From assembly GCF_000980835.1 (NCBI RefSeq), contig NZ_CP011312.1, positions 434,001 through 498,000 of the forward strand: a stretch of DNA of 64,000 nucleotides. The letters run 5' to 3'. This DNA is from Corynebacterium kutscheri (GTDB lineage Bacteria > Actinomycetota > Actinomycetes > Mycobacteriales > Mycobacteriaceae). The notes beneath the pieces were generated by a model. It worked only from the letters and a program-made list of their open reading frames with translations. It did not search any database and was not told the origin of the DNA. The translations under genes were made by a program, and so were the position numbers. This document shows, piece by piece, positions 427-62,857 of this stretch. Each line of letters opens with the position of its first letter. Position 1 is the stretch's first letter.

Positions 427-1281
427 ATGACCACCTTTTGTTCTGATTCCAGCATAGAACCGCTTGTCGGTACTGCAAAAACCGGCACCACCTATGTGCT
501 TGTTGAACATCCCGGGCCATGGAGTAAGGACATCTTAGACGGTGGAACTTTTAGTCCAGAGTTGACTGCGGAATTGAAAAAATTACCGGGGCTGTATCTG
601 ATCCGCAAACCTGGGCGTATAGGACGCATGCGGCGTGAACTCAAACGCGCATATCTTATTTTTAGTGAACTTGGCATCGCAGAAACACTATCGGTGCGCA
701 GCTACGAAGACCTGCTCACCCTAGATCTTACCGGTCCAGGTCGAAATAATATGCGCGGTGCTACGAAGCTTGACGAGCCCATCTTATTGGTGTGTACTCA
801 CTCTAAACGCGATATATGCTGTGCAGTTAAAGGAATTCCCATAGCAAAATCGCTTGTCGACGAGTTCCCTCATGCCCACATTTGGGAATGCTCACATGCT
901 AAAGGGCATCGCTTTGCTCCTGCGCTAGTACAGATGCCGCATAATTATGCTTTTGGTCGGCTTAATGAGCACGCAGCGAAGCAACTTTATCGCACTGTCT
1001 ACCTAGGGCAGTTTTATGTTCCTGGTGCGCGTGGTCGTGGTATCTATTCTCCAGCTGATCAAGTAGCAGAAGTTGCGGTCGCACAGCAATTAATTGAGCG
1101 CGGTGAGGCGCTGAGCTTAGGGCAATTGTCGGTTGCAGACAGCGTCGTGACGCATACTGATGGTCGGCAGTGGAAAGTTTTGGTTGAGCGTATCGCGGTA
1201 GATAATGTGCTGGCATCCTGTGGCACAGCGCCGAAGCCTGGTAAGGCATGGGTGGCGCGCTCGATTACAGGGTTGGGGTAA
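427..1281 (+). CDS. Sucrase/ferredoxin-like family protein
   Basis: A 284-residue cytosolic protein with the signature of the sucrase/ferredoxin-like (thioredoxin-fold, Apd1-like) family. It has a cysteine-rich segment CTHSKRDICC near residue 120 and a WECSHAKGHRFA motif near residue 156. In the family these Cys and His residues are thought to hold a 2Fe-2S cluster. The substrate or redox partner is unknown. The gene stands alone between a divergent lipoprotein gene and the convergent metI. A long inverted repeat follows the stop codon. Two copies or near-copies of the iterated CTAGGGCA element lie inside the gene near 1004 and 1117, coding for LGQF and LGQL. Family assignment is from motifs recognised by eye. 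Confidence 0.75.
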   Translation: MTTFCSDSSIEPLVGTAKTGTTYVLVEHPGPWSKDILDGGTFSPELTAELKKLPGLYLIRKPGRIGRMRRELKRAYLIFSELGIAETLSVRSYEDLLTLDLTGPGRNNMRGATKLDEPILLVCTHSKRDICCAVKGIPIAKSLVDEFPHAHIWECSHAKGHRFAPALVQMPHNYAFGRLNEHAAKQLYRTVYLGQFYVPGARGRGIYSPADQVAEVAVAQQLIERGEALSLGQLSVADSVVTHTDGRQWKVLVERIAVDNVLASCGTAPKPGKAWVARSITGLG

Positions 1282-1302
1282 TAATCTGTGTTGAGATAGA
1301 AG

Positions 1303-1366
1303 AAAACCCCTAAAATAGCATTTTCGGTCTTCTCGATTGACCTGAAAATACTATTTTTGGGGTTTT
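1303..1366. terminator. Bidirectional hairpin between the ferredoxin-like gene and metI
   Basis: Arms of about 25 bases, AAAACCCCTAAAATAGCATT on the left (1303-1322) and its imperfect complement ending in GGGGTTTT on the right (1341-1366), form a long hairpin bounded by A and T runs. It sits between convergent genes and can serve both. The inner part of each arm belongs to the AAAATAGNATTTT family of small inverted repeats seen elsewhere in this window. Confidence 0.7.
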
Positions 1367-1434
1367 GGGGGCTGTTTTAGCACATACCTGCTAACAAATG
1401 TGAACAGCAGCACAAGAAAAAGCCTGAAATTGCC

Positions 1435-2112
1435 CTAGCGGCGCATGATCTTTTTCGATGCCCAGTTGCCAAACAGCTGTGCACACTGCACGATCAAAAT
1501 GATCACTGCGGTAGCAACCCAGGTGACTTGCGGATCATAGGCGCGGTATCCGTAGACGATGGCGAAGTCGCCAAGACCGCCGCCACCGATATAGCCGGCC
1601 ATTGCAGACATATCGACAATCGCAATGAAAATGAAGGTGAACCCGAGAATCAGTGGGCCAAGCGATTCTGGAATGATAACGGAGGTAATAATCTTCCATG
1701 GGCTTGCTCCCATAGAGCGTGCGGCTTCGATAATCCCGGGATCGATAGTAACCAGGTTTTGTTCTACGATGCGGGCAACACCGAAAGTTGCGGCCACGCT
1801 CATGCCGAAAATGGCAGCATTACGTCCGATTTGAGTGCCTACCACAGCTGTTGTGAGCGGGCCAATAGCCGCGAGCAGAATAATAAAAGGAATCGGACGT
1901 ACCAGATTCACAATGAAGTTAAGTAGGGTATAGACAAAGCGGTTATGTAAAATATTTCCTGGTCGGGTGGTATAAAGCAGCATGCCGACGATAAGACCAC
2001 AAAAACCGCCAATGATCAGTGTCGAACTGACCATGATAAGGGTATCGCCGATGGCTTTGGTGAAGGTATCTTGAAGCCGATTCCAGTCCGCTGCGAGATA
2101 AGTAGTATTCAT
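1435..2112 (-). CDS. metI: Methionine ABC transporter permease MetI
   Basis: A 225-residue inner-membrane permease, close to the usual MetI length of about 217. It has several hydrophobic segments and the ABC permease EAA-type loop, seen as EAARSMGASPWKIITSVIIP near residue 140. It forms the channel of the MetNIQ importer for methionine. The start is the ATG at 2110-2112, which overlaps the metN stop as ATGA; the longer reading upstream is unnecessary. The gene ends at a TAG that lies inside a copy of the iterated element (CTAGGGCAATTT on this strand), so the last codons are set by the repeat. It is the third gene of metQ-metN-metI. Confidence 0.93.
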   Translation of the reverse strand: MNTTYLAADWNRLQDTFTKAIGDTLIMVSSTLIIGGFCGLIVGMLLYTTRPGNILHNRFVYTLLNFIVNLVRPIPFIILLAAIGPLTTAVVGTQIGRNAAIFGMSVAATFGVARIVEQNLVTIDPGIIEAARSMGASPWKIITSVIIPESLGPLILGFTFIFIAIVDMSAMAGYIGGGGLGDFAIVYGYRAYDPQVTWVATAVIILIVQCAQLFGNWASKKIMRR

Positions 2113-3131
2113 CGGGCGATCTCCTGAATCCACGTCGTGGTGTTTAGATGAGCATAGAAATTATTAATGGCTTCTTCTGATCCGGTCAGGCGCACAGTAA
2201 CTTTGCCAAAGCTGTGTCTTTGTAAAGTAGTTACTCCGCCATGAACGATGCTTATCGACGCACCTTGCTCGCGCGCTCTAGCGGATGCCGCGAAGAATCC
2301 AGAGTTCTCGGCGAGATCAATGGTAAATAGGCGTCCTTCATGGGCTAGGAGGTCTTCACTTTCGATTGCGTCGGGGGTATTACGTAGGGCAGTAGCAACA
2401 AAGCGTTTTGCGACCCGAGTCTGCGGGTTGGAAAAAACCTCGTATGTGGAACCATATTCAACTACCTGGCCGTTTTCCATGACGGCTACCTTATCGGCGA
2501 TGGCACGCACTACTTCCATTTCATGAGTAATGACGACGATGGTAATGCCAAATTCTTTATTTACCTTGCGTAGTAGGTTAAGCACTTCATGGGTGGTCTC
2601 TGGGTCAAGAGCTGAGGTGGCTTCGTCGGCAAGCAAAAGAGCCGGATTGGTGGCCAACGCGCGGGCAATACCTACTCGCTGTTTCTGACCACCAGAAAGC
2701 TGTTCTGGATAGTTATGTCCCCGATCGGCTAAGCCGACGAATTCTAAAAGCTCAGCGACTCGCTCAGTGCGCTCTTTTTTGGCCATCCCAGCAAGCTGGA
2801 GCGGATACTCGATATTGCCGGCGGCGGTGCGCGAGGCAAAAAGATTAAATTGCTGGAAAATCATGCCAATATTGCGGCGAATGGTGCGCAATTTAGCTTC
2901 ACTCATGCCAACAATATCAGTGCCGTCGAGACGCAGATGGCCACTGGTTGGGGTGTCTAGACCGTTAATCATGCGCACAAGTGTGGATTTTCCAGCACCG
3001 GAATAGCCGATGACACCCAGGATCTCGCCGGGTTGAACTTCAAGTGTGACGCTGTCTAGAGCTGTGACTTTTTTCTTATTAGAGTCGAAAACTTTAGTGA
3101 GGTTTTCGAACTCAATTCGGGTTCCGATCAC
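2109..3131 (-). CDS. metN: Methionine ABC transporter ATP-binding protein MetN
   Basis: A 340-residue ATPase that powers methionine uptake. The nucleotide-binding domain fills residues 1 to about 245, with Walker A GYSGAGKST, signature LSGGQKQRVGIARA, Walker B LLADEATSALD and the switch histidine in VITHEM. The C-terminal 75 residues match the NIL domain of MetN proteins, which binds methionine and inhibits transport when the cell is replete. The start is a GTG at 3129-3131. The stop overlaps the metI start by 4 bases, which suggests translational coupling. Confidence 0.94.
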   Translation of the reverse strand: MIGTRIEFENLTKVFDSNKKKVTALDSVTLEVQPGEILGVIGYSGAGKSTLVRMINGLDTPTSGHLRLDGTDIVGMSEAKLRTIRRNIGMIFQQFNLFASRTAAGNIEYPLQLAGMAKKERTERVAELLEFVGLADRGHNYPEQLSGGQKQRVGIARALATNPALLLADEATSALDPETTHEVLNLLRKVNKEFGITIVVITHEMEVVRAIADKVAVMENGQVVEYGSTYEVFSNPQTRVAKRFVATALRNTPDAIESEDLLAHEGRLFTIDLAENSGFFAASARAREQGASISIVHGGVTTLQRHSFGKVTVRLTGSEEAINNFYAHLNTTTWIQEIAR

Positions 3132-3627
3132 GGGGATATCTTTTCTATCTATGCCCTAGGGCAGTTTGAACAATTACTGTCTGTCGCATTTTTAGCTGAC
3201 TATGGGGATAAGCCCTGTTAGAAAGCACTTGATGTAGAAATTAGGCGGTAAGCCAGTGAAGGATTTCGATAGTGAATAATTTCAAATTATGGGAATCTTA
3301 TGTGTTGGTTACTGGACGTATTTATCGCAGGATGCATATGACGCGGTAGCTGGCGAATACAATGAAAATTGTGTTTTCGAGACATTCGCGATGACCCACA
3401 ACAGTCTTTAAAAACCTCAAAATAGTATTTTGAGTGTTTTAGTTTTCGTGAGTGTTTAGGGCAAATAGTTGCGAAGAATGGCGATAAAGGCCAGTTCTAA
3501 GCTGTTATGCGCTATTACGATGTGCCAGTAATAGACCCTAGGGCAAGTTTTATGTATTGCTTATGTCTAGTCCTGGTAGCGACTAGACAAGAAGCTTAGA
3601 TAAAAGACATGAAATTGCCCTAGGGGG
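3132..3627. other. Long metQ-metN spacer with iterated elements
   Basis: About 496 bases without a credible gene separate metQ from metN, although the two normally sit close together in one operon. The spacer holds three GCCCTAG elements (near 3157, 3539 and 3621) and a hairpin CTCAAAATAGTATTTTGAG at 3416-3434. The element near 3157 lies just upstream of the metN start. The hairpin could lower read-through from metQ into metN, but it lacks a clear T run. No protein-coding pattern was seen. Confidence 0.6.
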
Positions 3628-4506
3628 TTAGTTGACGGCTGCCTCAAGCTGATCAAGAATCTTCTTGAGATCAGATGCTGGGCGGACTACCTCGACGGAG
3701 GTTCCACCAGAGTCCTCTGAATCGGCGGCAACCACACTAGGATCGTGCCAGAGTTTAGCAAGTTTGAGGATATTTTCATCTGTGGCATTGTCGGCACGGG
3801 TGACAAAGACGTTGATATATGGTTGAGCTAGCTCGGAGTCTGGGTTGTCCTTGTATACGGCTAGGGTAGGGTCGATGCCGGCACGGCTAAGGAAAGAGTT
3901 GTTAATGATAGCTGGCTTGCCTTCGCCATATGAGGCGGTGGTTTGCTCGGCAGTTACTGGGACAACCTTCACTTTGGAAGCGTCTTGGTCGATATCGGCA
4001 GGAGTGGGGTCGGTGCCTAGGTCACCTTCTTTGAGTGTAATTAGGCCGGCTTGAACAAGCACATTAATGGCGCGGCCTTGGTTGGTGGTGTCGTTGGGGA
4101 TCACAACTTCTTCGCCTTCGATGCCATCGAGTGAGTTGTGGTCTTTCCAATACAGTCCTAGGGGGTAGATAGCGGTAGAGCTAACAGGGGTAAGCGTGCC
4201 ATTATTTTTGGCGTTGTATTCGGATAGGAATTTCAGGTGTTGGAAAAGGTTAACATCAATTTCGCCCTGTGCAAGTGCCACATTGGGGGTTGAGTAGTCA
4301 GAGAAATTGACCAGGTCGAGGTTAAGTCCGTTGTTCTCGGCGACTTCTTCCAAGGCAGCCCAAACTTTTAGGGTGCTATCGGTGGTGCCAATGCGGATTG
4401 TGGTGGAATCATCATTACTACCAGAGGAGTCACTGGAACACGCTATGACAGAGGTGGCGGTGAGAATAGTTGCAGCACTTAATACTGCTAATCGACGTAA
4501 CTTCAT
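3628..4506 (-). CDS. metQ: Methionine-binding lipoprotein MetQ
   Basis: A 292-residue substrate-binding lipoprotein of the NlpA/MetQ family. The signal peptide ends in a lipobox SVIAC at about residue 25, followed by a Ser/Asp/Asn-rich linker. The mature part carries family landmarks such as ALAQGEIDVNLFQHLKFL and IPNDTTNQGRA. It captures methionine outside the membrane and hands it to MetNI. The start chosen is the ATG at 4504-4506, preceded by AAAGGA about 9 bases upstream. A copy of the iterated element AAATTGCCCTAGGG lies directly after the stop codon. Confidence 0.94.
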   Translation of the reverse strand: MKLRRLAVLSAATILTATSVIACSSDSSGSNDDSTTIRIGTTDSTLKVWAALEEVAENNGLNLDLVNFSDYSTPNVALAQGEIDVNLFQHLKFLSEYNAKNNGTLTPVSSTAIYPLGLYWKDHNSLDGIEGEEVVIPNDTTNQGRAINVLVQAGLITLKEGDLGTDPTPADIDQDASKVKVVPVTAEQTTASYGEGKPAIINNSFLSRAGIDPTLAVYKDNPDSELAQPYINVFVTRADNATDENILKLAKLWHDPSVVAADSEDSGGTSVEVVRPASDLKKILDQLEAAVN

Positions 4507-4601
4507 TGGGTGTGTTCCTTTCTGCATGCTCGCTTTCGTTAAGTAGAAAACAAGCTATGTGTCGTTGTTATGCAGGAAACAGTAGCTGAGTCGATTTATT
4601 A

Positions 4602-4617
4602 TGTACAGCTTGGTCTA
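4602..4617 (-). promoter_or_regulatory. Candidate McbR-type operator upstream of metQ
   Basis: The sequence TGTACAGCTTGGTCTA matches 8 of 10 defined positions of the C. glutamicum McbR operator (TAGAC, six bases, GTCTA). It lies about 100 bases upstream of the metQ start. McbR represses sulfur and methionine genes, including metQNI, in C. glutamicum. That a McbR homologue exists here is assumed, so this is a motif-level suggestion. Confidence 0.35.
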
Positions 4618-10154: not shown

Positions 10155-10603
10155 AGACTCTCCTTAGCTCGTCACGTTCATAAGGGGTGCAGAGGGGGGA
10201 TCGTGGCGATTCTATGGTTTAGGTTTCTTGCTTTGCGACGTGCGTGATATCGTTTGCACGCCCTATGGGAACAAATCTATGGTCATAGGGCAATTCTGTC
10301 AATAATTGTGAGGTAACTAATTTATTAAAACTGCAGCCAGAATAATTATGATGGCGGGGAATTTGTCCTGTACATATAAGAAAAGAATCTCACCCAACCC
10401 CCTAGGGCAATTTTGAGAATTATTAAAAATTTACCCCCAGATGGGAGTTGGTTAAAGAAGCACAGTGCTCTGATTTGTCGGCTACATAAACGACCATTCG
10501 ATTGCAAAAAAGATGCGAAAATACCATTTTGAAGGTTTAGGGCTTCTCTTTAGGGCAGTTTGTAAAGCTCCAAATTGCCCTAGGAGGAATACAGTGTATA
10601 ACT
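10155..10603. other. Intergenic region between rbsR and PH-domain genes
   Basis: About 450 bases between divergent transcription units. It should hold the rbs promoter and that of the PH-domain pair. Visible elements are an imperfect palindrome at 10239-10260, GCCCTAG elements near 10402 and 10580, weaker TAGGGC variants near 10284 and 10555, and an AAAATACCATTTTGAA half-hairpin near 10515. No gene was recognised. Confidence 0.6.
10239..10260. promoter_or_regulatory. Candidate operator for RbsR
   Basis: CGTGC and GCACG flank a central GATATC-containing core, giving an imperfect 22-base palindrome about 85 bases upstream of the rbsR start. LacI-family regulators usually bind such dyads near their own promoter. 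The match to any published RbsR site could not be checked, so this is weak. Confidence 0.25.
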
Positions 10604-12260
10604 GTGAACCCTGTTTCTGAGAACCTTATTCAGGTACGCTACTTTGCCACCTTGCCTTGGTTTGTTGTGCCCGCACTTGCTGGTGTCGTGTATGGCATCG
10701 TCGATAAGCAAACGTGGGGTTGGCTGTATATCGCTGTTATTGCCCTAGGCGGAATTGCGCTGTGGTTATTGTGGCTGATCCCGCGCCAAGTCCGCGCGAT
10801 TCGTTGGCAGGAAACCGAAGAGGAGCTGCTTATTAGCAAAGGCCGCTTGTGGAATACCTGTCTGGTCATTCCCTATGGGCGGATCCAACACGTTGGGATT
10901 AGCCACGGCCCACTACTGCGCCATGCTGGTTTAAAAACATTGACCGTAAGCACTGCTAGCTTGTCGACGAATGCAAGAATCCCCGGTTTACCTGCAGAAC
11001 TTGCCGATCAGCTACGCAAAAACATTACCGATAAAGCCGCTGAGAAAATGGTCGAACTGTGAGGGTACATCCATTATCGCCACTGCTGCGAGCTTGGAGC
11101 GCAATAGCCGCGGTGATCATTTTTGCGCTTACGGCTTTTTCTGAAAAAACTCTCACCCTCCTAGGGCAATTTGGGGATTTTGCTGCCGGAGCTTATCCAG
11201 AATCTACCTGGGCCACTGTGCGCATTATTGTTTTTGCCCTAGGGGTAAGTGTGGTTGCTGTAGCGCTGGTTTTCGCATTTTCACTAATTTGGTGGCGGGC
11301 GAATACTTTCGAAATTACCAATTTGAGTGTGACCAGTACCCGCGGCGTGTTGCACAAAACACAGCAGATTGCTCCGCGCGATAAAATCCAAGCGGTTAAT
11401 GTTGTTCAGCCTATTCATGCGCGTCTTTTTGGCCTAGCAGCTGTGCGTATTGAGATAGCCGGTGGCGGGCTCGGTTCTGCGGTGGCTATCGAATACGTTA
11501 CAACGGCACAAGCGCATGCTATTCGGCATCAGCTGCTTGGCGACGACGAAACAAGTGAAGAAATCATTGCTCCAATAAAAGTGTGGCGTTCTTTTCTTGC
11601 CACCTTGTTAAGCATTTCCGCGCTGTTTAGTATTGCCCTAGGCGTGACGACGTTATTTGTTGGCGTCACGGTCGCCACAGCGTCGCTTATTCCTACTGCG
11701 ATCAATATGTGGCGCATTTTGGATGGGTCGTATCGGTTTACTGCACGCAAAATTGCCGATCAGATTGTCGTTACCTACGGACTAGCTACCTTGCATCGCA
11801 ATAGCGTGACCATCGCCAAAGTACACGCCGTAGAGATGTCCCAACCTGCCCTATGGCGAATCCCCGGTTGGTGGAGCGTGCGCGTGACTGTGGTGGGCTA
11901 TGGACAGGGCGAAAAAGGCGTGACTTTACTGCCGGTGGGCTCGAAGGGGCAAGCACTGAAACTCGTACAACTTCTCCTAGGGCAATTTGAGCAATTGCAG
12001 GTGTATCGTACGCCACGAAAAGGCCGGTGGGTTTCGCCAATCGATGCCGATAAACAGTTTGCCGCCCTAGGGCAATTCCATATGGTGACGGCTAAAGGAA
12101 AAATCGGGCGCAAATATGCGATTGCTTTTCGACGTCACATTCAGCAATTATCAGTGACCACACCACCATTACATCGCATGATTGGTATGCAAAGTGTGCG
12201 TGTCGGGTTAGCAAGGGGACCAGTTACTATGACTGCACGCGATATTGCCCTAGGAGATGC
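10572..12260. repeat. Dense cluster of GCCCTAG iterated elements
   Basis: Eight exact GCCCTAG/CTAGGGC elements lie in under 1.7 kb, near 10580, 10747, 11160, 11239, 11639, 11977, 12066 and 12250, in both orientations. All but the first are inside the two PH-domain genes and keep the frame open. It is the densest run in the window. Confidence 0.85.
10604..11062 (+). CDS. PH-domain membrane protein (YdbS-like)
   Basis: A 152-residue protein with two membrane segments near residues 15-55, followed by a bacterial PH domain (bPH2, YdbS-like) containing LISKGRLWNTCLVIPYGRIQHV. Such proteins usually occur as a pair with a larger YdbT-like partner, as here, and their role in the envelope is not settled. 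The GTG start at 10604 is 16 bases past the nearest AGGAGG, which is part of an iterated element, so the start is uncertain. A 4-base GTGA overlap joins it to the next gene. One iterated element inside codes for IALG near 10747. Confidence 0.8.
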   Translation: MNPVSENLIQVRYFATLPWFVVPALAGVVYGIVDKQTWGWLYIAVIALGGIALWLLWLIPRQVRAIRWQETEEELLISKGRLWNTCLVIPYGRIQHVGISHGPLLRHAGLKTLTVSTASLSTNARIPGLPAELADQLRKNITDKAAEKMVEL

Positions 12261-12360
12261 GCAGGATTTGTTTATGCGCCTGCGTAGCCCAATTGACGCC
12301 ATGCCTCATAAGTTGCCACACTCGCGGCATTCGCCAAATTCATGGAGCGACGTCCTTTAA
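11059..12360 (+). CDS. PH-domain membrane protein (YdbT-like)
   Basis: A 433-residue membrane protein with hydrophobic hairpins near residues 10-75 and 175-215. These separate two or three bPH2 domains (for example TSTRGVLHKTQQIAPRDKIQ, and LATLHRNSVTIAKVHAVEMS). It is the larger partner of the preceding YdbS-like gene. Six copies of the iterated element lie in the coding sequence and produce LGQF three times, IALG twice and FALG once. The last 29 codons overlap the convergent trmL gene on the other strand, so the C-terminal tail is antisense to a conserved trmL segment and may be a read-through extension. Function is unknown. Confidence 0.8.
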   Translation: MRVHPLSPLLRAWSAIAAVIIFALTAFSEKTLTLLGQFGDFAAGAYPESTWATVRIIVFALGVSVVAVALVFAFSLIWWRANTFEITNLSVTSTRGVLHKTQQIAPRDKIQAVNVVQPIHARLFGLAAVRIEIAGGGLGSAVAIEYVTTAQAHAIRHQLLGDDETSEEIIAPIKVWRSFLATLLSISALFSIALGVTTLFVGVTVATASLIPTAINMWRILDGSYRFTARKIADQIVVTYGLATLHRNSVTIAKVHAVEMSQPALWRIPGWWSVRVTVVGYGQGEKGVTLLPVGSKGQALKLVQLLLGQFEQLQVYRTPRKGRWVSPIDADKQFAALGQFHMVTAKGKIGRKYAIAFRRHIQQLSVTTPPLHRMIGMQSVRVGLARGPVTMTARDIALGDAQDLFMRLRSPIDAMPHKLPHSRHSPNSWSDVL

Positions 12361-12845: not shown

Positions 12846-13703
12846 GTGACTGCTATTAAACTTGATGGAAACTTGTACCGTGATGAGATTTTTGAGGATT
12901 TAGCAAAGCGCGTCTCCTCCCTAGGGCAAAAAGGGATCGTTCCGGGGTTGGCAACTGTCCTAGTAGGGGATGATCCTGCTAGCCATTCATATGTGAAAAT
13001 GAAACATCGGGATTGTGAACAGATCGGTGTTCGTTCTATCCGCAAGGACTTGCCGGAGAATACTACTCAGGAAGAACTGAATGCGGTTATTGATGAGCTC
13101 AATGCTGATCCAGCATGCACCGGCTACATTGTGCAGTTACCACTGCCAAAGCATCTTGATGAAAATGCCATTTTGGAGCGAATCGATCCTGAAAAAGATG
13201 CTGACGGTTTACACCCAGTGAACTTGGGCAAACTTGTCCTAGGGGATGCGGCACCTTTACCGTGCACCCCGAATGGTGCGATCCATCTTCTACATCGATT
13301 TGGTATTGAAACAGCAGGTAAAAAAGTTGTTGTGATTGGTCGTGGCGTTACAGTTGGACGTCCTATTGGACTTATGTTGACTCGGCGTAGTGAAAACGCC
13401 ACCGTAACTTTGTGTCATACTGGTACGCAGGATCTTAAAGCTGAGACACTTGCGGCTGACATTATTGTTGCTGCTGCAGGCGTGCCGCATATGCTTACCA
13501 AAGAAATGGTTAAACCTGGTGCCGCAATTCTTGACGTTGGGGTTTCGCGTAAAGATGGAAAATTGCTTGGCGACGTTCATCCCGACGTGTGGGAAATCGC
13601 TGGTGCTGTTTCACCAAATCCTGGTGGAGTTGGGCCATTAACACGTGCATTTTTGGTTCGAAACGTTGTCGAACGAGCGGAACAACAGGCAGAACTAGCG
13701 TAA
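12846..13703 (+). CDS. folD: Bifunctional methylenetetrahydrofolate dehydrogenase/cyclohydrolase FolD
   Basis: A 285-residue cytosolic enzyme that interconverts 5,10-methylene-, methenyl- and 10-formyl-tetrahydrofolate for purine and methionine synthesis. Clear motifs are [20 protein letters not shown] with the catalytic Lys and Tyr, [29 protein letters not shown] and [13 protein letters not shown]. The GTG at 12846 is chosen because the family starts at TAIKLDGN; a longer open frame upstream has no family counterpart. Two iterated-type elements are embedded (SLGQKG near 12919, and a partial copy near 13239). A small membrane protein gene follows at once. Confidence 0.93.
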
Positions 13704-14092: not shown

Positions 14093-14140
14093 AAAACAGC
14101 CTTATCTCAGTTATTCCCGCCAATTGAGTTAGGCTGTTTT
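14093..14140 (+). terminator. Terminator after the folD unit
   Basis: AAAACAGCC and GGCTGTTTT form the base of a hairpin followed by CTTATTTTTA. The hairpin overlaps the 3' end of the convergent HNH pseudogene. Confidence 0.65.
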
Positions 14141-15642
14141 CTTATTTTTAGGTAGCCGGAAATTTTGTATTTTGCTGTCATTGATGGCTTGTTGGTTGTT
14201 AATGAGCCGTTTTCGATGTTCGGCAATTTTTTGGTGCTTGAATTATCTTCAATGGCGTTAGCTGGGCTGGTTTCCTCGAAAAGCTTGGTAAAAACTTCTT
14301 GTACGCGGCCTATTTTTTGCTGTTTTGCATAAAATCCAGTGCGCCAATTTCTCCAGATAATGGTGCCGTCTGCTTCAAGGTGTACCTCGGCTTCGCCATT
14401 AGTGAGCTGGCGATGATGATGGGTACACACCATAACGATATTGTTTACCCCAGTTGGACCGCCCTCTATCCAAGGGCGAATATGGTTGGCTTCACAATAT
14501 TCGGCTGGGGTATCACAATCGGGGTGGGCGCATACTGATTGCTCCCGGGCTCGAATCATCCGGTGCAGGGTTGGTGAAAATCGAACCAGGCTACCGGCAT
14601 CGAGCGGTTGGCGGGTAAATTCGTCGTACACCACATATGCACCGACGTTGTTGCATACGTCGTCGACAAGCTCAGCGATACTACCAAATTGCCCTAGGGG
14701 AGTTGTGCTTGCTTTTAGCAGCTGTCCAAGCGTTACGACGAGGTAAGGGCTGCGCATTCGATTCCACATCCATTGTGGGTCTATACAGGTGCATGCTGTT
14801 TTGCAGGTGCATTCGTTACTGTCACGGTGAGCAAGTCCAAGGATGTGATTGGCAATTTCGTGGGCGGTTTGTGTGGTTTGCTGGACTGTCTTTTCGCTTG
14901 TGGCATCTATTTGGTTATTTGTGTTTGCTGCTGGTTTATAGATATGTGTTAATGCTTCCGTGACGCCGAGTTTGATAAGAGAATGCGCATTCATGCCTAG
15001 CCGTAGCGTTTGCTCAATGCCGCGGGCTAGGGCTTGGCTTGGTGTTTCATTTGGCAGTGTACGATTGCGCAGGTTGCTAAGGTGCTCGATAATGTCTTGA
15101 TTAGTTTCGGTGCGCATACGGTAATTGAGATATGTAATCCCCGTGCCATTGTCTGCAGAGAGATCAGCGCGCGAATGTGGCACATAATTTGATTCTTGAT
15201 TAATGCGCTTGACCTGTTCAATTGTTGCTGATTCGAGCTGTCTGAAGGTCATTGTTTTATCGAGTGCACACAGAATATGCAGCCAGGTTTGTTCCAGTGA
15301 TAATCCATTGTTGCGCGCGGCACTTTTTGCCTTGGCATAGATAATTGCATGGCTATCAATACTAAGCTGGAGCTCGCGAACCCGTTGCCGAATTTGTCTA
15401 ATTACCTCTGCTTTGTCCGAGCTTTTCGACGGTGGTGGTATAGCAAGTGCTCGTGCCGCGCGTGTCTAATCACCGCTAATATTGCGACGTAGTTGCAGGC
15501 CGGCACAGAGGTCATCGGCGCGCCATCGGTGAGCGATAACTTCGTCGCAAAATTTAACCGCATCGTAGAAAAGTCCAATAAGAGTCTGCTTCATGTCGAG
15601 GAAATCAACAAGACGATCAGTGCTGTGCTGGGTTTCTTTCAT
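14107..15642 (-). pseudogene. HNH endonuclease (DUF222/13E12-like) split by an in-frame amber codon
   Basis: Read from the ATG at 15640-15642, one frame covers 511 codons and is interrupted once, by TAG at 15466-15468 after 58 codons. Both sides look coding: ...GLQLRRNISGD before and TRAARALAIPPPSKSSDKAE after. Downstream is a typical DUF222 region and a C-terminal HNH domain with CAHPDCDTPAEYCEANHIRP and VCTHHHRQLTNGEAEVHL (zinc ligands and catalytic His). Internal re-initiation at the ATG 15252 would give a 381-residue product keeping the HNH domain. The gene therefore carries a nonsense change and may be inactive or yield only the short form. Such HNH/DUF222 genes are often multicopy in actinobacteria. 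Confidence 0.8.
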
Positions 15643-30386: not shown

Positions 30387-31445
30387 ATGATAACCGTGGT
30401 AACCCCATCGACACGCCCAGATTCTTCGAAAACTGATGAATACGGCATCGAAAGAGTTTATGCAGATGAACAGGGATTTATCGATAAGTATCGCGAAAGG
30501 TGGTCGGCTTTTGACCACGTGATGCGCATGAACGAACGCTATACCCAAGAAGGCGGCAATCAGTTTTCAGCAGGTATTACGTATTTCTCGGTGCTTTCGT
30601 TGTTTCCGCTTCTTATGTTGGGCTTTGCCGTGGTCGCTACTTTATTGGCATATCGACCCGATTTATTGGCGCAGATTCAAGAAGCTATTGTTACCTCTGT
30701 GGAGGAGTCACTTGCTGACACCTTGAACACGATTCTTGATACCGCGATCTCGCAGCGTAATTCGATGTATGGCATCGGTGGTATTACCGCGTTATGGTCT
30801 GGACTAAATTGGATGAATAATCTGCGGTTCGGAGTATCGAAAATGTGGCGTTACCCGATTGCTGCTGATAATTTCTTTGCGACGAAAATACGTGATCTCA
30901 TCGGACTCATCGGCATGCTACTCGCCTTTATCATTGCTTTTGGTGTGACCGCTATCGGCTCTTCCGGGTTAACACAGCGCATTCTAGAACTGCTGCATCT
31001 TGATGCCATACCGGGTATTTCGCTACTTACTTATGCAATTACTTTGGTGGTTGGTTTGATTGCCAACTTTGTATTTATGTTTTGGCTGATGAAATACCTA
31101 CCGCGTGGAAAAGTACCTATCAAGGCCGCAGCTAAGGCCGCAGTGATTGGTGCCGTTGCTTTTGAGTTTCTTAAACAAATTGGTGCGCTCTTTTTCACTA
31201 ATGCGCTCAGCAATCCTGCTGGTGCTACTTTTGGTCCGATCATCGGTATCATGGTTATTTTTTACTTTGTGTGGCGCATCGTTATGTATTGCGCTTCTTG
31301 GGCTGCGACCACAGAAGAAGCATTAGCGATTGCGACTCTTGAAGCACCAGGACCAGCAATTATTCGAGTACGTGAAGAAGTTAAAGTAAGTGCCAATCCA
31401 CTGACAACGGTGCGTGCTCTTATCGATAACTTGCGCACCCCCTAG
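30387..31445 (+). CDS. YihY/BrkB-family inner membrane protein
   Basis: A 352-residue membrane protein of the YihY (formerly RNase BN-like) family. It has about six hydrophobic segments and the family pattern QFSAGITYFSVLSLFPLLML near residue 55 and FGPIIGIMVIFYFVWRIVMY near residue 280. Its biochemical role is unknown; a transport or envelope role is often assumed. The position after trpS matches C. glutamicum. The stop codon TAG lies inside an exact iterated element (CCCCCTAGGGCAATTTTGG), so the C-terminal RTP is set by the repeat. Confidence 0.88.
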   Translation: MITVVTPSTRPDSSKTDEYGIERVYADEQGFIDKYRERWSAFDHVMRMNERYTQEGGNQFSAGITYFSVLSLFPLLMLGFAVVATLLAYRPDLLAQIQEAIVTSVEESLADTLNTILDTAISQRNSMYGIGGITALWSGLNWMNNLRFGVSKMWRYPIAADNFFATKIRDLIGLIGMLLAFIIAFGVTAIGSSGLTQRILELLHLDAIPGISLLTYAITLVVGLIANFVFMFWLMKYLPRGKVPIKAAAKAAVIGAVAFEFLKQIGALFFTNALSNPAGATFGPIIGIMVIFYFVWRIVMYCASWAATTEEALAIATLEAPGPAIIRVREEVKVSANPLTTVRALIDNLRTP

Positions 31446-38273: not shown

Positions 38274-39485
38274 ATGGAACTTACGGTGGGGAACACAAAG
38301 CAGGTGAGGTCACACTTATCATTAATAACTGTTTATGTTGATCGGTGGATTAGCGAGCATAACGATGAGATTATTCAGTGGCGACGTCATCTTCACCAGC
38401 ACCCAGAACTATCGCATATGGAGTTTTCTACCACCGAGTTCATCGCTACCACCCTAGGGCAGTTTGGGTTGGAACCGGTTTTGTTTCCCACCACTGGTCT
38501 TATGGTTGATATTGGCCCGGATACGGAAGAAAAACTTGCTTTTCGTGCTGATATTGATGCTCTGCCTATCACTGAGCACTCGCAGGAGCCGTTTAGCAGT
38601 GTTAATACGGGAGTCATGCATGCGTGCGGACATGATATTCACACAACAATTGCTTTAGCTTTAGCCTGTGCACTAGCTAGTGCGCCACTAGAAATTGGGG
38701 TGCGGGTTATTTTCCAACCGGCAGAAGAAGTTATGGATGGCGGTGCATCTGAGGTAATTAGTTTTGGTGCCTTGCAGGGAGTTTTTACTATTTATGCGCT
38801 CCATGCCGAACCAAAGCTAAAAGTAGGAAAAATCGGGGTGCGCACAGGAGCAATTACTTCTGCTAGTGATGTTATTGACATCAAGGTATACGGTTCAGGC
38901 GGGCATAGTTCGCGTCCGCATTTAACTCAGGATGTTGTTTATGCACTGGCAAAAATTGTTACGGAACTACCAGGGTTATTATCGCGCCGGGTGAGTGCAC
39001 AAACCGCTACCGTTATGGTTTTTGGTTCGATTAATGCTGGTTATGCTGCCAATGCAATTCCAGAATATGGGCAGGTTTCGGGCACGATTCGTACTGGCGA
39101 CATTACTGTGTGGCGTACTATTCAGCCGCTTTTAGAGGAGCTTATTGCGCACATTATTGCTCCTACCGGTTGCCGACATGAGGTTATTTACACTAAAGGT
39201 GTGCCTCCAGTTATCAACGATGATGTGGCAACTGGGATTCTTGCTGAAGCAAGTGCCAGTATTGATCCGCATGCGGTAGTGCAGGCTCCGCAGTCTTCTG
39301 GGGGCGAGGATTTTTCCTGGTATTTAGAGCATGTTCCTGGTTCAATGGCCAGGCTTGGCTGTTGGGATGGATCTGGTGAACCTGGAGATCTTCATCAAGC
39401 TAATATGCGTGCCGACGAACGCAGCATTATGGTGGGTATGCGCCTATTTGCCGCTATTGTGGATAAGTTTCAGGGGGCTGGGTAG
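38274..39485 (+). CDS. M20-family amidohydrolase
   Basis: A 403-residue metal-dependent peptidase-like hydrolase of the M20D branch, which cleaves N-acyl amino acids or similar amides. Family features are RRHLHQHPELSHMEFSTTEF, MHACGHDIHTTIALALACAL with metal-binding Cys/His, FQPAEEVMDGG, and GGEDFSWYLEHVPG near the C-terminus. The first 24 residues are variable, and a start at the ATG 38274 follows GGAAAGGGG. It precedes lpdA, as in C. glutamicum. An element encodes TLGQFGLEP near 38455. The natural substrate is not known. Confidence 0.87.
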   Translation: MELTVGNTKQVRSHLSLITVYVDRWISEHNDEIIQWRRHLHQHPELSHMEFSTTEFIATTLGQFGLEPVLFPTTGLMVDIGPDTEEKLAFRADIDALPITEHSQEPFSSVNTGVMHACGHDIHTTIALALACALASAPLEIGVRVIFQPAEEVMDGGASEVISFGALQGVFTIYALHAEPKLKVGKIGVRTGAITSASDVIDIKVYGSGGHSSRPHLTQDVVYALAKIVTELPGLLSRRVSAQTATVMVFGSINAGYAANAIPEYGQVSGTIRTGDITVWRTIQPLLEELIAHIIAPTGCRHEVIYTKGVPPVINDDVATGILAEASASIDPHAVVQAPQSSGGEDFSWYLEHVPGSMARLGCWDGSGEPGDLHQANMRADERSIMVGMRLFAAIVDKFQGAG

Positions 39486-57828: not shown

Positions 57829-57848
57829 TAAGTTAAGAAAGCAAGTGG

Positions 57849-59117
57849 TTAATGTGACGCATTCTCAATAGCTGCCTTCATATCAGCGGAGGCAGTATTG
57901 ACATCCTTGGTTCCTTGCAATGCGGCATATGCATTGTCCTGGATAGCTTTAGAAATAGCTGGGTAGAACGGGCTTACCGGGCGAGGAGCAGCATTTTCCA
58001 AGGACTGCTTTAATGCAGGCAAATATGGGTATTTTTCAATGAGTTCGTTGTCATCGTAAATGGAGGCTAACACTGGTGGGAAGGAGTTATCCGCAAACCA
58101 GGTTTGGTTTTCTTCATTGATGATGAACTTCATAAAATCCAGTGCAGTGGCCTTATATGGTGAGTTGATATTAATGCCATTGTTGTAGCCACCGAGGGTT
58201 GAAACACCGACACCATCTTTGCCAACCAATGGGGCAACGGCAAACTTTCCAGCTACTGCAGAGGTTTCGGATTCTGCGTTGGTGTACATATATGGCCAGT
58301 TGATTGCATAAGCGGTCTCACCAGCAACAAATGCTAGATTGGTTTCTTCTTCGGTAGCGCTTAATGAACCAGAAGAAATAGTGCCATCGGAATAGCCGTC
58401 GACAAGTGCTTGGAGGCCTTCTTTGGCTTGATCACTATCGACGACTACCTTGCCATTATCGTCAAGAACATGTCCACCAAAACCTTCGATAAAGCCGGTG
58501 GTGTTTACCGTTAAACCTTCATACTGTTTGAGCTGGAGAGTCAGACAATCCACATTGGACGTCTTTGCGGCCTCACAGCTGGTAGCTAGTTCTGCCCAGT
58601 TTTGTGGTGCCTCCGGAATAATTTCCGTGTTCCGGAACAGTAACTGACCATTGGTGTTTTGCGGCAATGCATACAAGGTTCCGGCATAGGTGGCGGAATC
58701 AACAGTTGCTTGCAAGAGATTTGAGGTATCAACCGAAAGATCACCAGTTAATGGGGCAATCCATTGGTTTGCCGCAAAATCGGCTGTCCAGACCACATCG
58801 AGTGCCATAACATCGTAGTCGGCGTTGCCGGCTTGTAGAGACTGAACTAGGGTATCGCGTTGGTCATCAGCTTCACCGGCTAACTCTTTGAGTGTTACCT
58901 GTTCATCTGGGTGAAGCTCATTCCATTTTTCGATAATTGGAATGATTTTATCGGTATCGTTCTTACCCATTGCAAAGCTAATGGGGCCGCGGCCATCCGC
59001 TTGAGTTGTTGTTGAGGAAGAGCCGGAATCGGAGGAACAACCAGCAAGTGCAATAACACCGGTGAGTGCCGTAGCAGCAAGAATAATGCCGGTTTTCTTC
59101 GTAAAACGGGTAGCCAT
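57849..59117 (-). CDS. Trehalose-type ABC importer binding lipoprotein (TusE/LpqY-like)
   Basis: A 422-residue substrate-binding lipoprotein. The signal peptide ends in the lipobox VIALAGC near residue 22 and is followed by a Ser/Thr linker. The mature protein is a MalE/LpqY-type sugar-binding fold, with EKWNELHPDEQVTLKELAGE, YDVMALDVVWTADFAANQWI and ALPQNTNGQLLFRNTEIIP. The ATG at 59115-59117 has AAGGTG upstream; a longer reading adds a residue run before the signal peptide. Trehalose is the likely ligand from homology and locus order. Confidence 0.87.
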   Translation of the reverse strand: MATRFTKKTGIILAATALTGVIALAGCSSDSGSSSTTTQADGRGPISFAMGKNDTDKIIPIIEKWNELHPDEQVTLKELAGEADDQRDTLVQSLQAGNADYDVMALDVVWTADFAANQWIAPLTGDLSVDTSNLLQATVDSATYAGTLYALPQNTNGQLLFRNTEIIPEAPQNWAELATSCEAAKTSNVDCLTLQLKQYEGLTVNTTGFIEGFGGHVLDDNGKVVVDSDQAKEGLQALVDGYSDGTISSGSLSATEEETNLAFVAGETAYAINWPYMYTNAESETSAVAGKFAVAPLVGKDGVGVSTLGGYNNGININSPYKATALDFMKFIINEENQTWFADNSFPPVLASIYDDNELIEKYPYLPALKQSLENAAPRPVSPFYPAISKAIQDNAYAALQGTKDVNTASADMKAAIENASH

Positions 59118-59248
59118 AAGGGGAGCACCTTTCAGTAGGGTTCTTCCCATGAATTTAGTGAGCTTCTTCTGGCTTTAGGAAACTTGTGATACCCATTACC
59201 CCCAAAATAAGTTATTACTTGTGAGTAATATGGGTTATCGCATGATCG

Positions 59249-59926
59249 CTATGTTGGATTTTCGTCGATAAATGCGGTTACTTTTTCCATTTCAGCAATT
59301 GCTGTTAGGCGTTTATCGTCGATAAGCCCACGGACAATAACAGATGATCCTAATCCGGCAAGGGGGGCAAGTACCGCTTTTTCTAGTCCACGGTAATTGT
59401 GCCAGCCGGTGCACAGTACGCGATCTGGAGTACCAGCAGTAACTACTTTGGCTAATTCGGGAGTGGGATCGTAGTATTGGTCGCCATAAAAGCGCACGGT
59501 GGGGGCAAAATCGATCGCTGCAGGGGCTAATTGTTGACCGGTTTCTATTACTCCTCGCCCAAGTGGATCATCGGTTACAACAACAAGGTCACCATCAAAA
59601 GAGGTGTTAAGAGCACTGGTGGGCGTGCAGAATAATACGTCGCTTGGCTGTTGCACCGCATCAGGATTATTAGTGATGTTTACCTTAATATCGGTAGCTA
59701 ATGCACCAAGGACAATAACAATTGTTTGCCAACTAGGCGGTAGTGCAATGCTTATAGTCGATCCCTGGTCGAGGTCGAGTTCTTCACGTAAAAAATGAGC
59801 CACTTTGGCCGTCCAATTATCCAAAGTCTGGGCGGAAAAATCGACCCTGCTGCCCGTGCTTTCGTTATATACGGTAAGCCGGGGACGGGCAGGGTCATCA
59901 TGAAGCAGCGAACTCAATAGATTCAT
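59249..59926 (-). CDS. TIGR03089-family protein
   Basis: A 225-residue actinobacterial protein resembling the N-terminal portion of AMP-forming enzymes (LTVYNESTGSRVDFSAQTLD, then ELDLDQGSTISIALPPSWQT). It lacks the ATP-binding P-loop and the C-terminal domain, as is normal for this family, so an adenylation role is unlikely. In C. glutamicum the family member also adjoins the LCP gene. A GCTTATCGACG-type element copy encodes part of IDDKRL near 59317. Confidence 0.75.
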   Translation of the reverse strand: MNLLSSLLHDDPARPRLTVYNESTGSRVDFSAQTLDNWTAKVAHFLREELDLDQGSTISIALPPSWQTIVIVLGALATDIKVNITNNPDAVQQPSDVLFCTPTSALNTSFDGDLVVVTDDPLGRGVIETGQQLAPAAIDFAPTVRFYGDQYYDPTPELAKVVTAGTPDRVLCTGWHNYRGLEKAVLAPLAGLGSSVIVRGLIDDKRLTAIAEMEKVTAFIDENPT

Positions 59927-60004
59927 GATCGACCATCATAATGGTGACCACCTTAGTTATGCGAGGACAAGTTTTTTGCTTATCGACGATTAGCTAACTA
60001 TCCG

Positions 60005-61555
60005 CTAGTTAACACAGCGTGGGCTCGTGCCGCCAGCATTAATTTCTGGAGAAACAATGGCTTCGCCATTATCTGATCCAGGAGAGCCAACAACATTTGA
60101 TGTATCCGGTGCTGTTTCTTCGCTGCGTGGTCCGGTGTAATCACTGGCTGCCACCACAATGACGGTATTTGAATCAAGCGTGGAATTTTCCACAATAGGC
60201 AGTCCACCTAGTTCGGCGGCAATAGCAATGGCATCGGGATTACTTGCATCAGCAGCAAGAACTTGCGAGCTAGAATACACCCCTTCGGTGGCATTTGCTG
60301 TTTCTGTGATGGTATAGCCTTTTTCTATTAATGCGGCAGCTATCTGCGAAGCCAGGCCGCTACTGTAGGTGGCGTTAAGCACGTGAATCTCGGCAGAAGA
60401 TGAAACAGTGGTGGTCTCTGGTGCTGCTGACGTCGTGGTTTCCGGCTGGTTTTGATTCAACAACTGATCGAAGAAGTCATGTACTTGTTGCACATCGACG
60501 GTGACAATTGATTCACCGTAATCACCAACACCGTCAATTGAGGTTACCGGGATGGTATTAAAGGAAACCCTGCCCCCAGCAAGATTTTGTAACTGGGTAG
60601 CAAAGCTCATAATGTCCCATCCTTCGTCGATAACAACAGAGCGAGTTACCGCTTCGCCGAGTTGCGATAACGTAGCAGGATTGGTCAGGGTGCCAGAACT
60701 AAGCACTTTATTTACCAAGGAAGCCATATATGCTTGCTGACGTACAATACGATCCAAGTCGCCGCGGGGTAGTCCATGACGTTGGCGAACAAAAGCTAGT
60801 CCTTGTGCCCCATCTAGCGTTTGTGTTCCGGCTGGGAAGTCGGCACCAGAATATTCGTCATAGACGGTATCGTTGAGACAGACCTCAACACCATTAACTG
60901 CATTGGTTAATAACACAAAACCCAACAGGCCAACCTCAGCGTAATGATCTACCGTGACGCCGGTGAGATCACTAATAGCACGGATAAGTGCTTTGCGCCC
61001 GGCATCTTTTGAGCGCTCTTCTAGCGTTTGTTGGTTGCTTAAACCTTGTTCAACTAGTTCGGCACGTTCTTGATATTTGTATGCCGAATAGACACCATTG
61101 ATCTTTGTATTCCCGATCTCTGGATCATGGATATAAGTATCGCGCGGAATTGAAATAGCGGTGGCTGAGGAACCGTCGTTAGGAACGCGAATCACCATCA
61201 TAGTGTCGGTATTATCTGCTTCCTCATCACCGGCGTGCAGCATATCGGTTTCTTCTTGAGTGAGCGGATTTCCCTGGGCATCAGTACGTGAATCGGAGCC
61301 GACTAATAAAATATCGGTAGCACCATCAAGGGCGTTGTTTTTGACTCCGCCACCCCCACCGAGCTCTAGATTGCCGGAGGCAACAGTGTTTCCAATGCGT
61401 CCAACGGTGTAATAACCCATTCCAGAAACGACGAGAACTAGCGTGGAAAGAAAAGCTACCAGCACACGCAAGGTTTTTGGGGTGGCTTGAGCCGTATCCG
61501 GACCTGGTGGCGGAGGTGCTTGAATAGCACGGGTAGGGCGATACTTCTCAGTCAT
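60005..61555 (-). CDS. lcpA: LytR-CpsA-Psr family cell-wall ligase LcpA
   Basis: A 516-residue membrane-anchored protein. One membrane segment near residues 28-50 is followed by the LCP domain, with ILLVGSDSRTD, DTMMVIRVPNDGSSATAISI, PRDTYIHDPEIG, and RQRHGLPRGDLDRIVRQQAY. A Thr/Ser linker leads to a C-terminal LytR_C domain (EIHVLNATYSSGLASQIAAA). LcpA of C. glutamicum attaches arabinogalactan to peptidoglycan. The gene faces away from the wbbL-like gene, across a 396-base gap. Confidence 0.92.
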   Translation of the reverse strand: MTEKYRPTRAIQAPPPPGPDTAQATPKTLRVLVAFLSTLVLVVSGMGYYTVGRIGNTVASGNLELGGGGGVKNNALDGATDILLVGSDSRTDAQGNPLTQEETDMLHAGDEEADNTDTMMVIRVPNDGSSATAISIPRDTYIHDPEIGNTKINGVYSAYKYQERAELVEQGLSNQQTLEERSKDAGRKALIRAISDLTGVTVDHYAEVGLLGFVLLTNAVNGVEVCLNDTVYDEYSGADFPAGTQTLDGAQGLAFVRQRHGLPRGDLDRIVRQQAYMASLVNKVLSSGTLTNPATLSQLGEAVTRSVVIDEGWDIMSFATQLQNLAGGRVSFNTIPVTSIDGVGDYGESIVTVDVQQVHDFFDQLLNQNQPETTTSAAPETTTVSSSAEIHVLNATYSSGLASQIAAALIEKGYTITETANATEGVYSSSQVLAADASNPDAIAIAAELGGLPIVENSTLDSNTVIVVAASDYTGPRSEETAPDTSNVVGSPGSDNGEAIVSPEINAGGTSPRCVN

Positions 61556-61951
61556 AGATATAAGTTATGCTCCTGAATCGGGTACCTACGGATATGTGGA
61601 ATTAAAAGTCGACTGTAAAACCAAACATCCTCAGGCTGCTGGGTCTCTTACACATACCAGCAGATAAAACACTGGTTATATTGTCTGATCCAGCAATGAA
61701 AAATTCATAGCCACATATTTTGATGCCTAAACAATTGTCTAAAGCAAAAGGCGACTACCTAATTACAGAGGATTTTAGGCGAGAATCAGCTAAGTAGGAA
61801 AGGCGACAGGCATATTTTCCACCTAGGGCAATTTTGCATTTTTATTTGCGGGCAGCCAGAAACAGATAAGTGCACGGAAGAAAAGTATCTGAGATAACGC
61901 GCTACACACAGGCGTTGAGTAATCAGCTCAGTTAAAAGTACCAGTACACTT
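61556..61951. other. Intergenic region between lcpA and wbbL
   Basis: About 400 bases between divergent cell-wall genes, so both promoters should lie here. It contains one iterated element near 61824 (CACCTAGGGCAATTTTGC). TACACT about 2 bases before the wbbL GTG could be a -10 box for a leaderless transcript. No gene was recognised. Confidence 0.5.
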
Positions 61952-62857
61952 GTGCTCGTGAATAAGCCCATTGCAGTAATTACGGTGACCTACTCTCCTG
62001 GCGATCATTTGGCAGCTTTTATTTCATCGCTAGCTACGGCAACACAGCGTGGTGTAGAAATCTATCTAGCCGATAATGGTTCTACTGATGGTGTGCCGCA
62101 ACAGCATGCGCATAGCCAAGACAATGTGCATTTTTTGCCAACTGGCGGCAATATTGGTTACGGCAGCGCTATTAATTATGCAGTGGCTTCTTTAGCTCAG
62201 GCGCGTGAACAGGGGCGTATCGACGCTGATTTTTTTGTTCTTGCTAATCCTGATGTGACCTTTGAACCAGGTTCGATTGATGCCATGATTCAGTGCGCCA
62301 GGCGCTGGGAAGAAAAAGGGTATCGGGTTGGTGATGTCGGTCCTTATATCCGTCAAAGTGATGGTTCAGCTTATCCTTCTGCACGAGCAGTACCCACGGT
62401 GATCAATGGTATTGGGCATGCGTTATTTGGTGCGATATGGAAGAACAATCCATGGTCGAAGTCTTACCGTGATAATGCGGTTATGGATCAAGAACGCAGT
62501 GCCGGCTGGCTTTCTGGGTCATGCTTAGTGGTTAATTGGTCTGCTTTTGATGAAATTGGTGGTTTTGATCAGCGGTATTTCATGTATATGGAGGATGTGG
62601 ATTTAGGTGATCGTTTTGGTCGCGCTGGGATGGTTAATGTTTTTTGCCCTAGGGCGGTTATTACCCATGCGGTGGGACACGCTGCCGGAAAAAATCCAGA
62701 GAAAATGCTCCCGGCACATCATGATTCGGCCTATCGTTTTCAAGCTGATCGTCATCCATATTGGTGGCAGGCACCATTGCGGTGGGCATTGTGGTGTGGA
62801 TTAAAAGTGCGCGCCTATGTGGCAGTGGTAATTGCACAGAAACGCGGGAACCGCTAG
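61952..62857 (+). CDS. wbbL: Rhamnosyltransferase WbbL-like (GT2 family)
   Basis: A 301-residue glycosyltransferase of family GT2. Features are VITVTYSPGDHLAAFISSLA, the nucleotide-sugar site YLADNGSTDGVP, FVLANPDVTFEPGS (DxD-like metal site) and FMYMEDVDLGDRFGRAGMVN. WbbL adds rhamnose to decaprenyl-diphospho-GlcNAc, making the linker between peptidoglycan and arabinogalactan. GTG 61952 is used; GTG 61958 two codons later is an alternative. An exact element encodes CPRAVI near 62650. The next gene supplies nucleotide sugar. Confidence 0.9.
   Translation: MLVNKPIAVITVTYSPGDHLAAFISSLATATQRGVEIYLADNGSTDGVPQQHAHSQDNVHFLPTGGNIGYGSAINYAVASLAQAREQGRIDADFFVLANPDVTFEPGSIDAMIQCARRWEEKGYRVGDVGPYIRQSDGSAYPSARAVPTVINGIGHALFGAIWKNNPWSKSYRDNAVMDQERSAGWLSGSCLVVNWSAFDEIGGFDQRYFMYMEDVDLGDRFGRAGMVNVFCPRAVITHAVGHAAGKNPEKMLPAHHDSAYRFQADRHPYWWQAPLRWALWCGLKVRAYVAVVIAQKRGNR

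Follow-up and report, generated by a model that had tools for sequence, protein, structure and literature searches.

A 64-kb stretch of the Corynebacterium kutscheri chromosome (contig NZ_CP011312.1, bases 434001-498000 of 2,354,065; this whole stretch is hereafter the window) hosts a dense array of the short word GCCCTAG, which surrounds a gene encoding a DUF222-like HNH nuclease. The association of array and nuclease gene is not confined to this locus. Each array of this kind goes with a single gene, from a subfamily of DUF222-like HNH nucleases of corynebacteria, and different nucleases are accompanied by different words. Each word is most likely the sequence recognised by its nuclease. The reading favoured here, to which a probability of about 0.5 may be assigned, is that the GCCCTAG array belongs to a class of gene-centred arrays, in which the cognate site of the nuclease would have accumulated by biased conversion. 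The first-pass annotation of the window, made from the letters alone, had spotted the word and missed the nuclease gene at the centre of the array.

The over-representation reported in that annotation is real. The window contains 67 copies of GCCCTAG, 38 on the forward and 29 on the reverse strand (about 58 had been counted by hand), against 5.2 expected from a second-order Markov model for both strands, and all 49 positions listed at the time fall within 5 bases of an actual copy. The words CCCTAGGG, TGCCCTAG and TTGCCCTAG exceed expectation in the window even more sharply. Copies were said to lie throughout the window. They indeed span positions 1003..62652 in both orientations, but unevenly, as 39 of the 47 copies of TTGCCCTAG reside within the first 36 kb, the densest part; to the left, the array continues past the window start to about 397-407 kb of the chromosome. 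The wider consensus is YYS-AAA-TTGCCCTAG-GRRR. In an alignment of 77 sites the motif consists of YYS, AAA or TTT, TTGCCCTAG, G and purines, and is asymmetric, the AAATTGCC half being strong and the other half merely purine-rich. The palindrome-like consensus initially proposed has to be abandoned, since AATTGCCCTAGGGCAATT is matched at no site of the genome with fewer than two mismatches, and at 7 sites with two. Neighbours of TTGCCCTAG differing at one base are below expectation at some inner positions, above it at others and at both ends, and the excess is largest at the two ends.

Words are found in genes as well as in spacers, as first described. Gene placement was judged by a simple gene caller of our own, according to which about 82% of the 260-558 kb region is coding; spacers, about 18% of the sequence, hold 38 of the 107 sites, twice their share. 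Among genic sites lying on the same strand as the gene, 31 of 32 use the frame GCC-CTA (Ala-Leu). At ten sites between 284 and 467 kb the word provides, by the same gene calls, the TAG stop codon, and its specific half falls outside the gene. A coding artefact is ruled out by the twofold enrichment of spacers and by the amino acids that words alter.

The array is local. GCCCTAG occurs 296 times in the whole genome against 212 for the reversed control; the corresponding figures are 114 and 0 for TGCCCTAGG, and among the 100 positions listed of these 114, 11 are at 286-303 kb and 59 at 407-497 kb. A scan of 260-558 kb with a position weight matrix (PWM) of the word peaks at 17 hits per 4 kb at 444-448 kb. 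On either side, around 412 and 476 kb, the count has dropped to about 1 hit per 4 kb, and weaker tails extend further out. A second block of TTGCCCTAG, at 284-303 kb (L022, L023), stops abruptly on its right side near 303.5 kb; perhaps it was displaced from the window array or represents an older portion of it. TTGCCCTAGG, with 91 copies here, does not exceed 6 copies in any of 150 related genomes, 90 of which belong to the genus. Because the word is concentrated in two regions, it displays neither the genome-wide frequency of HIP1-like words nor the genome-wide excess of uptake words, and the early suggestion of a genome-wide word, whether HIP1-like, for uptake or for methylation, cannot be maintained. 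One word at a fixed position across species, as for parS or matS, was not observed. A parS-like site is ruled out, as two perfect canonical parS sites reside at 2.33-2.35 Mb, near the contig end, where we take the origin to be. Strand use is nearly balanced, with 194 and 177 words over 19 arrays, which rules out a polar replication or Chi-like signal.

Orthologous loci were compared, as the first-pass annotation had proposed. In five syntenic relatives, in which gene order largely matches, each 68-kb stretch contains 0-1 copies of TTGCCCTAG, and no subfamily member was found in the matching stretches. The nuclease gene is thus present or absent at orthologous sites among relatives, as is the case with homing endonucleases. 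A horizontally acquired island is ruled out, the region being core and largely colinear in the five relatives.

The nuclease gene (14107..15642, reverse strand, ATG at 15642) sits at the density peak, which is 0.8 kb from the gene centre. An HNH domain (PF01844) is detected at 14398..14532 on the same strand with 28.9 bits against a cut-off of 21.4, and the Cys and His-Asn-His residues are kept. HNH residues are retained in subfamily members, and two of the seven members scanned with PF01844 are under the cut-off (19.6 and 16.7 bits). The DUF222 model PF02720 identifies no gene of this genome above the Pfam cut-off; when run on the seven members scanned, it gave 18.6 bits against a cut-off of 24.4 for L210, and no match for the other six. 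A PADLOC search for anti-phage defence with 5 proteins returned stray matches alone (best E 6e-4 over 32 residues). Translated from the ATG, the window gene has a single in-frame TAG after 58 codons, the rest being open, and is probably inactive. Since the gene now looks broken, the array would be a relic that outlasted it. One word copy lies inside the gene (14691..14697, forward strand), as does a second GCCCTAG, at 15027, which lacks the wider word.

Additional arrays occur in the same genome. HNH genes related to the window copy are located at 186, 531, 1101, 1158 and 1959 kb; another, at 229 kb, is more distantly related. Another local word, TTTCGCTGTAG, emerged from a k-mer check at 498-558 kb, the region of the 531-kb HNH gene, and for this reason the surroundings of all HNH genes and other regions were compared by a 9-mer clustering scan, blind to gene positions, over 1.04 Mb of the genome. 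Five words surround as many nuclease genes: CGCTTCCGG (136-213 kb, 61 copies) the 186-kb gene h186, TTGCCCTAG (397-497 kb, 69 copies) the window gene h448, TCGCTGTAG (530-543 kb, 12 copies) the 531-kb gene h531, AACTCTATG (1095-1105 kb, 9 copies) the 1101-kb gene h1101, and GTCTATGGG (1152-1160 kb, 5 copies) the 1158-kb gene h1158. Their smoothed density peaks are 0.2-2.7 kb from the centre of the HNH gene. An array is found at 5 of the 6 nuclease genes, if the broken window copy is included. In a set of 88 overlapping 20-kb windows, the 17 with a log-likelihood ratio (LLR) of at least 14 form six clusters, all at HNH genes, and the next value is 13.3. One of the six clusters, with TATGCGGTT at 231-248 kb, is off-centre, beside the 229-kb HNH gene of another type. 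Ten copies of TGCGGTTAT, at 226.9-252.4 kb, are likewise off-centre beside the same gene. Some high-ranking 9-mers repeat within 0.3-1.6 kb away from HNH genes (28.7-29.1, 959.5-959.8 and 1602.6-1602.9 kb); the LLR scan required a word to be spread over 3 kb, and such tight runs were therefore excluded. Sampling was denser around HNH genes than elsewhere in the genome, which prompted the use of similar windows in other species.

For this survey an alignment of seven proteins was searched against 24 corynebacterial genomes, and windows of 17-20 kb were taken to carry an array when the corrected score exceeded 9. Genomes and windows are denoted below by G and L numbers. In the first four genomes, a local word was found in all 7 of the 21 HNH windows that carry a near-full-length protein; as an example, CTAGGAGG has 44 copies in one relative's window, and AGTTAGGAG 21 copies against 0.03 expected. 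With full-length and other genes left together, the 21 HNH windows still outscore 39 controls (Mann-Whitney p = 0.0035). Eleven further full-length genes were predicted beforehand to carry words. Five of them passed (two in G043, two in G068, one in G220) and none of 17 controls did (p = 0.005; 3/8 and p = 0.02 if ortholog pairs are counted once). Altogether, arrays accompany 12 of 18 full-length windows in ten other corynebacteria against 2 of 48 controls (p = 2.8e-7), or 3 of 48 when the cut-off is lowered to 5, which leaves 12/18 unchanged. The difference from windows on other HNH genes of the genus, 2 of 14, is also marked (p = 0.004), and when all HNH windows of Corynebacterium relatives are pooled 14 of 32 pass (p = 2e-5 versus controls). 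No array was seen in 20 windows on other DUF222/HNH genes from four other genera (p = 7e-6 versus 12/18), these windows serving as background for one another, with no separate controls. That arrays reside at all DUF222/HNH genes is ruled out by the 2/14 and 0/20 figures. L121 and L129, two of the controls, each include an HNH gene of a different type and lack a word.

Some observations from the surveyed windows stand apart. L179 (G192, 899-919 kb) and L199 (G186, 344-364 kb), both on other HNH genes, hold 7 copies of GTGACCGTGG and 12 copies of CCCCCTGA, respectively. GGAAAGAAT has 23 and 30 copies per 68 kb in G043 (L119-L122) and G068 (L127-L130), iterated alongside TCGACGATTC-like words.

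Words track the protein. G043 and G068 have two pairs of orthologous nucleases, at 91% identity, and within each pair the word is the same (CTAGGAGA, and CCGTGGGGA); the third pair, G029/G286, has no word, and the predicted sharing thus held for two pairs. A nuclease located at 788 kb in G180 is 57% identical to the nucleases bearing CCCGTGGGGA, and has the same word CCCGTGGGGA. This nuclease is the sole open reading frame, out of 42, common to the two 20-kb windows, while a syntenic pair run in the same manner matches 35 of 44. Genome-wide, CCCGTGGGGA is present in 39, 53 and 61 copies in G180, G043 and G068 (3, 1 and 2 for the reversed control), and in 4 and 3 copies in G192 and G252. At the syntenic locus of G180, G043 and G068, protein identity is 54-55%, and words are close and unequal (CTAGGAGG and CTAGGAGA). 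Because word identity tracks protein identity across unrelated neighbourhoods, we infer that the protein recognises the word. Many words share a pyrimidine-rich left and a purine-rich right side, as read from the consensus strings.

Density decreases with distance from the gene. In G180 the nearest 2 kb have 1.0 copies per kb, and the figure sinks to 0.003 per kb at distances above 320 kb. The median distance of copies from the gene centre is 0.6 kb in G180 and 4.8 kb in G043. The profile is roughly inverse to distance, and arrays fade over tens of kb. In 12 of 13 arrays, one or more copies are found in the 500 bases upstream of the aligned nuclease start.

Words formed in place. In protein alignments across genic word sites, no gap is seen near the word in 65 of 72 pairwise comparisons, which shows substitution in situ and rules out the insertion of a mini-element; six of the seven gapped comparisons concern, by our own reading, one gene of variable length. 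The first-pass annotation had listed a self-propagating mini-palindrome among the possible roles of the word. A self-propagating word was rightly considered; the palindrome is at odds with the asymmetric motif, and insertion with the ungapped comparisons. Some words change conserved protein residues. Within folD (12919..12930, reverse strand) the protein reads LGQKG, against LKEKG or LKERG in five of five relatives, and within the gene at 38418-39485 the word (38452..38463, reverse strand) yields TTLGQFG, where all five relatives have other residues; neither site shows an indel. Once formed, words are conserved. In the comparison of G043 with G068, whose windows are about 85-86% identical, 29 of 33 CGTGGGGA sites are intact, as are 20 of 22 sites of CCGTGGGGA, against about 30% and 25% of flanking k-mers; for CTAGGAGA the counts are 14 of 15 and 14 of 20, against 30% and 33% in the flanks. 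Neighbours with one mismatch are intact in 46-60% of cases, below words and above flanks.

How words may have accumulated can be modelled as follows. The nuclease would act on pairs of word and non-word sequences, present in a heteroduplex, at a site that has just mutated, or in two copies undergoing recombination. The copy bearing the word would be favoured, for instance by nicking of the strand without the word, so that near-words would be turned into words, and mutated words turned back. Words that were simply cut and repaired from word-less copies would be lost, hence a process protecting or copying the word is favoured. Biased conversion would account for words that form in place and with no regard to the protein encoded, and for the conservation of each of dozens of redundant sites. 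Arrays could be local because the nuclease acts close to where it is made, or because words are linked to an accessory gene which spreads in long recombination tracts, and the roughly inverse-distance profile fits both options. Pushed further, and more tentatively, the nuclease may be viewed as a writer of words, whose surroundings would converge by point changes, with no insertion, on a private word of 8-10 bases, overriding conserved residues; the profile would then mirror either how far a site is from the gene within the folded nucleoid, or recombination tract length.

The nearest rival of biased conversion is a drive acting through DNA transfer. According to this hypothesis, words mark the DNA linked to the nuclease for uptake, protection or recombination, and are local since only linked DNA benefits consistently. 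Word use, in-place formation, low strand bias and conservation of single sites are all reminiscent of uptake words, the nuclease gene is patchy and resides at different loci, and the fading of arrays over tens of kb fits as well. Uptake words are genome-wide, however, and those described here local, and we regard a transfer drive as unlikely. Alternatively, the array could be useful to the host. The protein would bind words to organise, silence or regulate the neighbourhood, and words would be kept by ordinary selection, as in a local parS, matS or Noc-site domain. Each site is strongly conserved, and the words upstream of the nuclease in 12 of 13 arrays could serve autoregulation. Yet neighbourhoods are wholly different between genomes sharing the same word, the protein retains HNH nuclease residues, some words alter conserved protein residues, and a need for each of dozens of redundant sites is hard to sustain. 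A function of this type seems quite unlikely.

Words might also be decoys, absorbing a dangerous nuclease near the place where it is made. Locality around the gene and the upstream copies would be accounted for, but one decoy among dozens brings little benefit, and sites are individually conserved; moreover, the window array has stayed in place next to a gene that carries an in-frame stop. We find a decoy function very improbable. The association with nuclease genes could finally be accidental, if words stem from codon use, were brought in horizontally from a donor rich in them, or stand out through uneven sampling. The denser sampling of HNH regions in this genome, and word clusters found apart from such a nuclease (284-303 kb, L192 and L201), speak for coincidence. 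Against coincidence, the region belongs to the core and keeps most of its gene order in five word-less relatives, the 17-20 kb windows gave 12/18 against 2/48, different words surround different nuclease genes, and the same word surrounds related ones. An accidental association is hardly credible.

Several data weigh against biased conversion around a cognate nuclease, and should be considered together. In the genome analysed, the 1959-kb gene has a weak candidate word alone and no clear array, and there is no HNH gene near the second TTGCCCTAG cluster at 284-303 kb. The window gene fits the subfamily model in its C-terminal half only, and is interrupted by a stop codon, yet its array has the most copies of all found. 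Both the division into full-length and other genes and the cut-off of 9 were chosen after the first scores had been seen. The division is not sharp, since wider queries match L170, L171 and L197-L199, five of the 14 genes classed as other, along most of the protein; furthermore, 2 of the 14 other HNH windows of the first four genomes passed the cut-off. The prediction made beforehand failed for 5 of 11 genes (G029, G286 and three in G037), and one in G220 is weak; as a result, 6 of the 18 full-length windows in relatives are devoid of a clear word. Two controls passed, L192 (G180, 500-520 kb) with 8 copies of GAATCGACGA and L201 (G186, 1200-1220 kb) with 6 copies of AAAATGTCAT, and no HNH gene of this kind was detected in either window. 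Lastly, conservation alone cannot separate biased conversion from ordinary selection on a useful site.

The arrays resemble several known systems, and coincide with none. The uptake words of Neisseria and Pasteurellaceae (DNA uptake sequences, DUS, and uptake signal sequences, USS) are genome-wide, with one main word per species, no gene-centred gradient and no nuclease pairing. They have in common with the arrays a drive-like spread in place, the occurrence in genes and spacers, and conservation, whereas the arrays are local, gene-centred and paired with a nuclease. HNH homing endonucleases have one target at the empty site, and leave no array of dozens of sites in core genes. The nuclease genes described here are similarly patchy between species, encode HNH enzymes of candidate sequence specificity and could gain by biased conversion; they differ for the dozens of word sites in the surrounding core genes. 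Domains of parS, matS or Noc sites are clustered protein-binding words which define a chromosome region. Words here vary from array to array and follow the nuclease gene, and perfect parS sites lie elsewhere.

The parallel nearest in appearance is offered by the HIP1 and alternate HIP words of cyanobacteria. In the abstract of PMC4390886, each word is linked to a methyltransferase, a repair process is proposed to create and maintain words, and one-base deviants are biased to the word ends. Both types of words are short, iterated and tied to a DNA enzyme, and the excess of one-base deviants of TTGCCCTAG is also largest at the ends. HIP words are genome-wide, palindromic and linked to a methyltransferase, while those reported here are local, asymmetric, several per genome and linked to an HNH nuclease. 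As to the enzyme, the REP13E12 or DUF222-HNH repeat proteins of actinobacteria (the preprint PMC13061034, and PMC10589994) are members of the same broad class, combining DUF222-like and HNH regions. The preprint PMC13061034 describes REP13E12 loci as undergoing frequent gene conversion and having no defined biological function. The genes analysed in this work differ in that PF02720 finds none of them, with a sub-cut-off score on one relative, and arrays are absent (0/20) in four other genera.

A literature search by title and abstract opening found no description of gene-centred word arrays, and arrays of private words may therefore represent a kind of chromosomal feature without counterpart in that search. 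They provide a computable candidate recognition site for members of a nuclease class, of which the better-known REP13E12 relatives reportedly have no defined function, and a natural record of word drift as the protein diverges. They also offer a case, open to direct test, in which a protein would bias the base sequence around it on the chromosome, and explain a striking anomaly of a core region that would escape gene annotation by itself. If the notion of a word-writing nuclease is true, the enzyme would be a bacterial drive element, having as footprint a gradient of rewritten host sequence.

Other features of the window array deserve mention. The densest stretch begins with three word copies at 10402..10748 (no single strand assigned), a divergent spacer holding two of them and the gene that follows the third. 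A bPH_2 gene follows (11113..12360, forward strand), and carries six word copies. At 1435..1438 (reverse strand) the word supplies the stop codon TAG, as it does in the window at 31442 and 32718. A further word, CGTCGANAAG, is more widely spread, with 33 copies in the window, and is present in 19 of 20 sampled 20-kb stretches of the genome; words of this type are enriched in several relatives too, as CTTTTCGACG or CGTCGATAAG.

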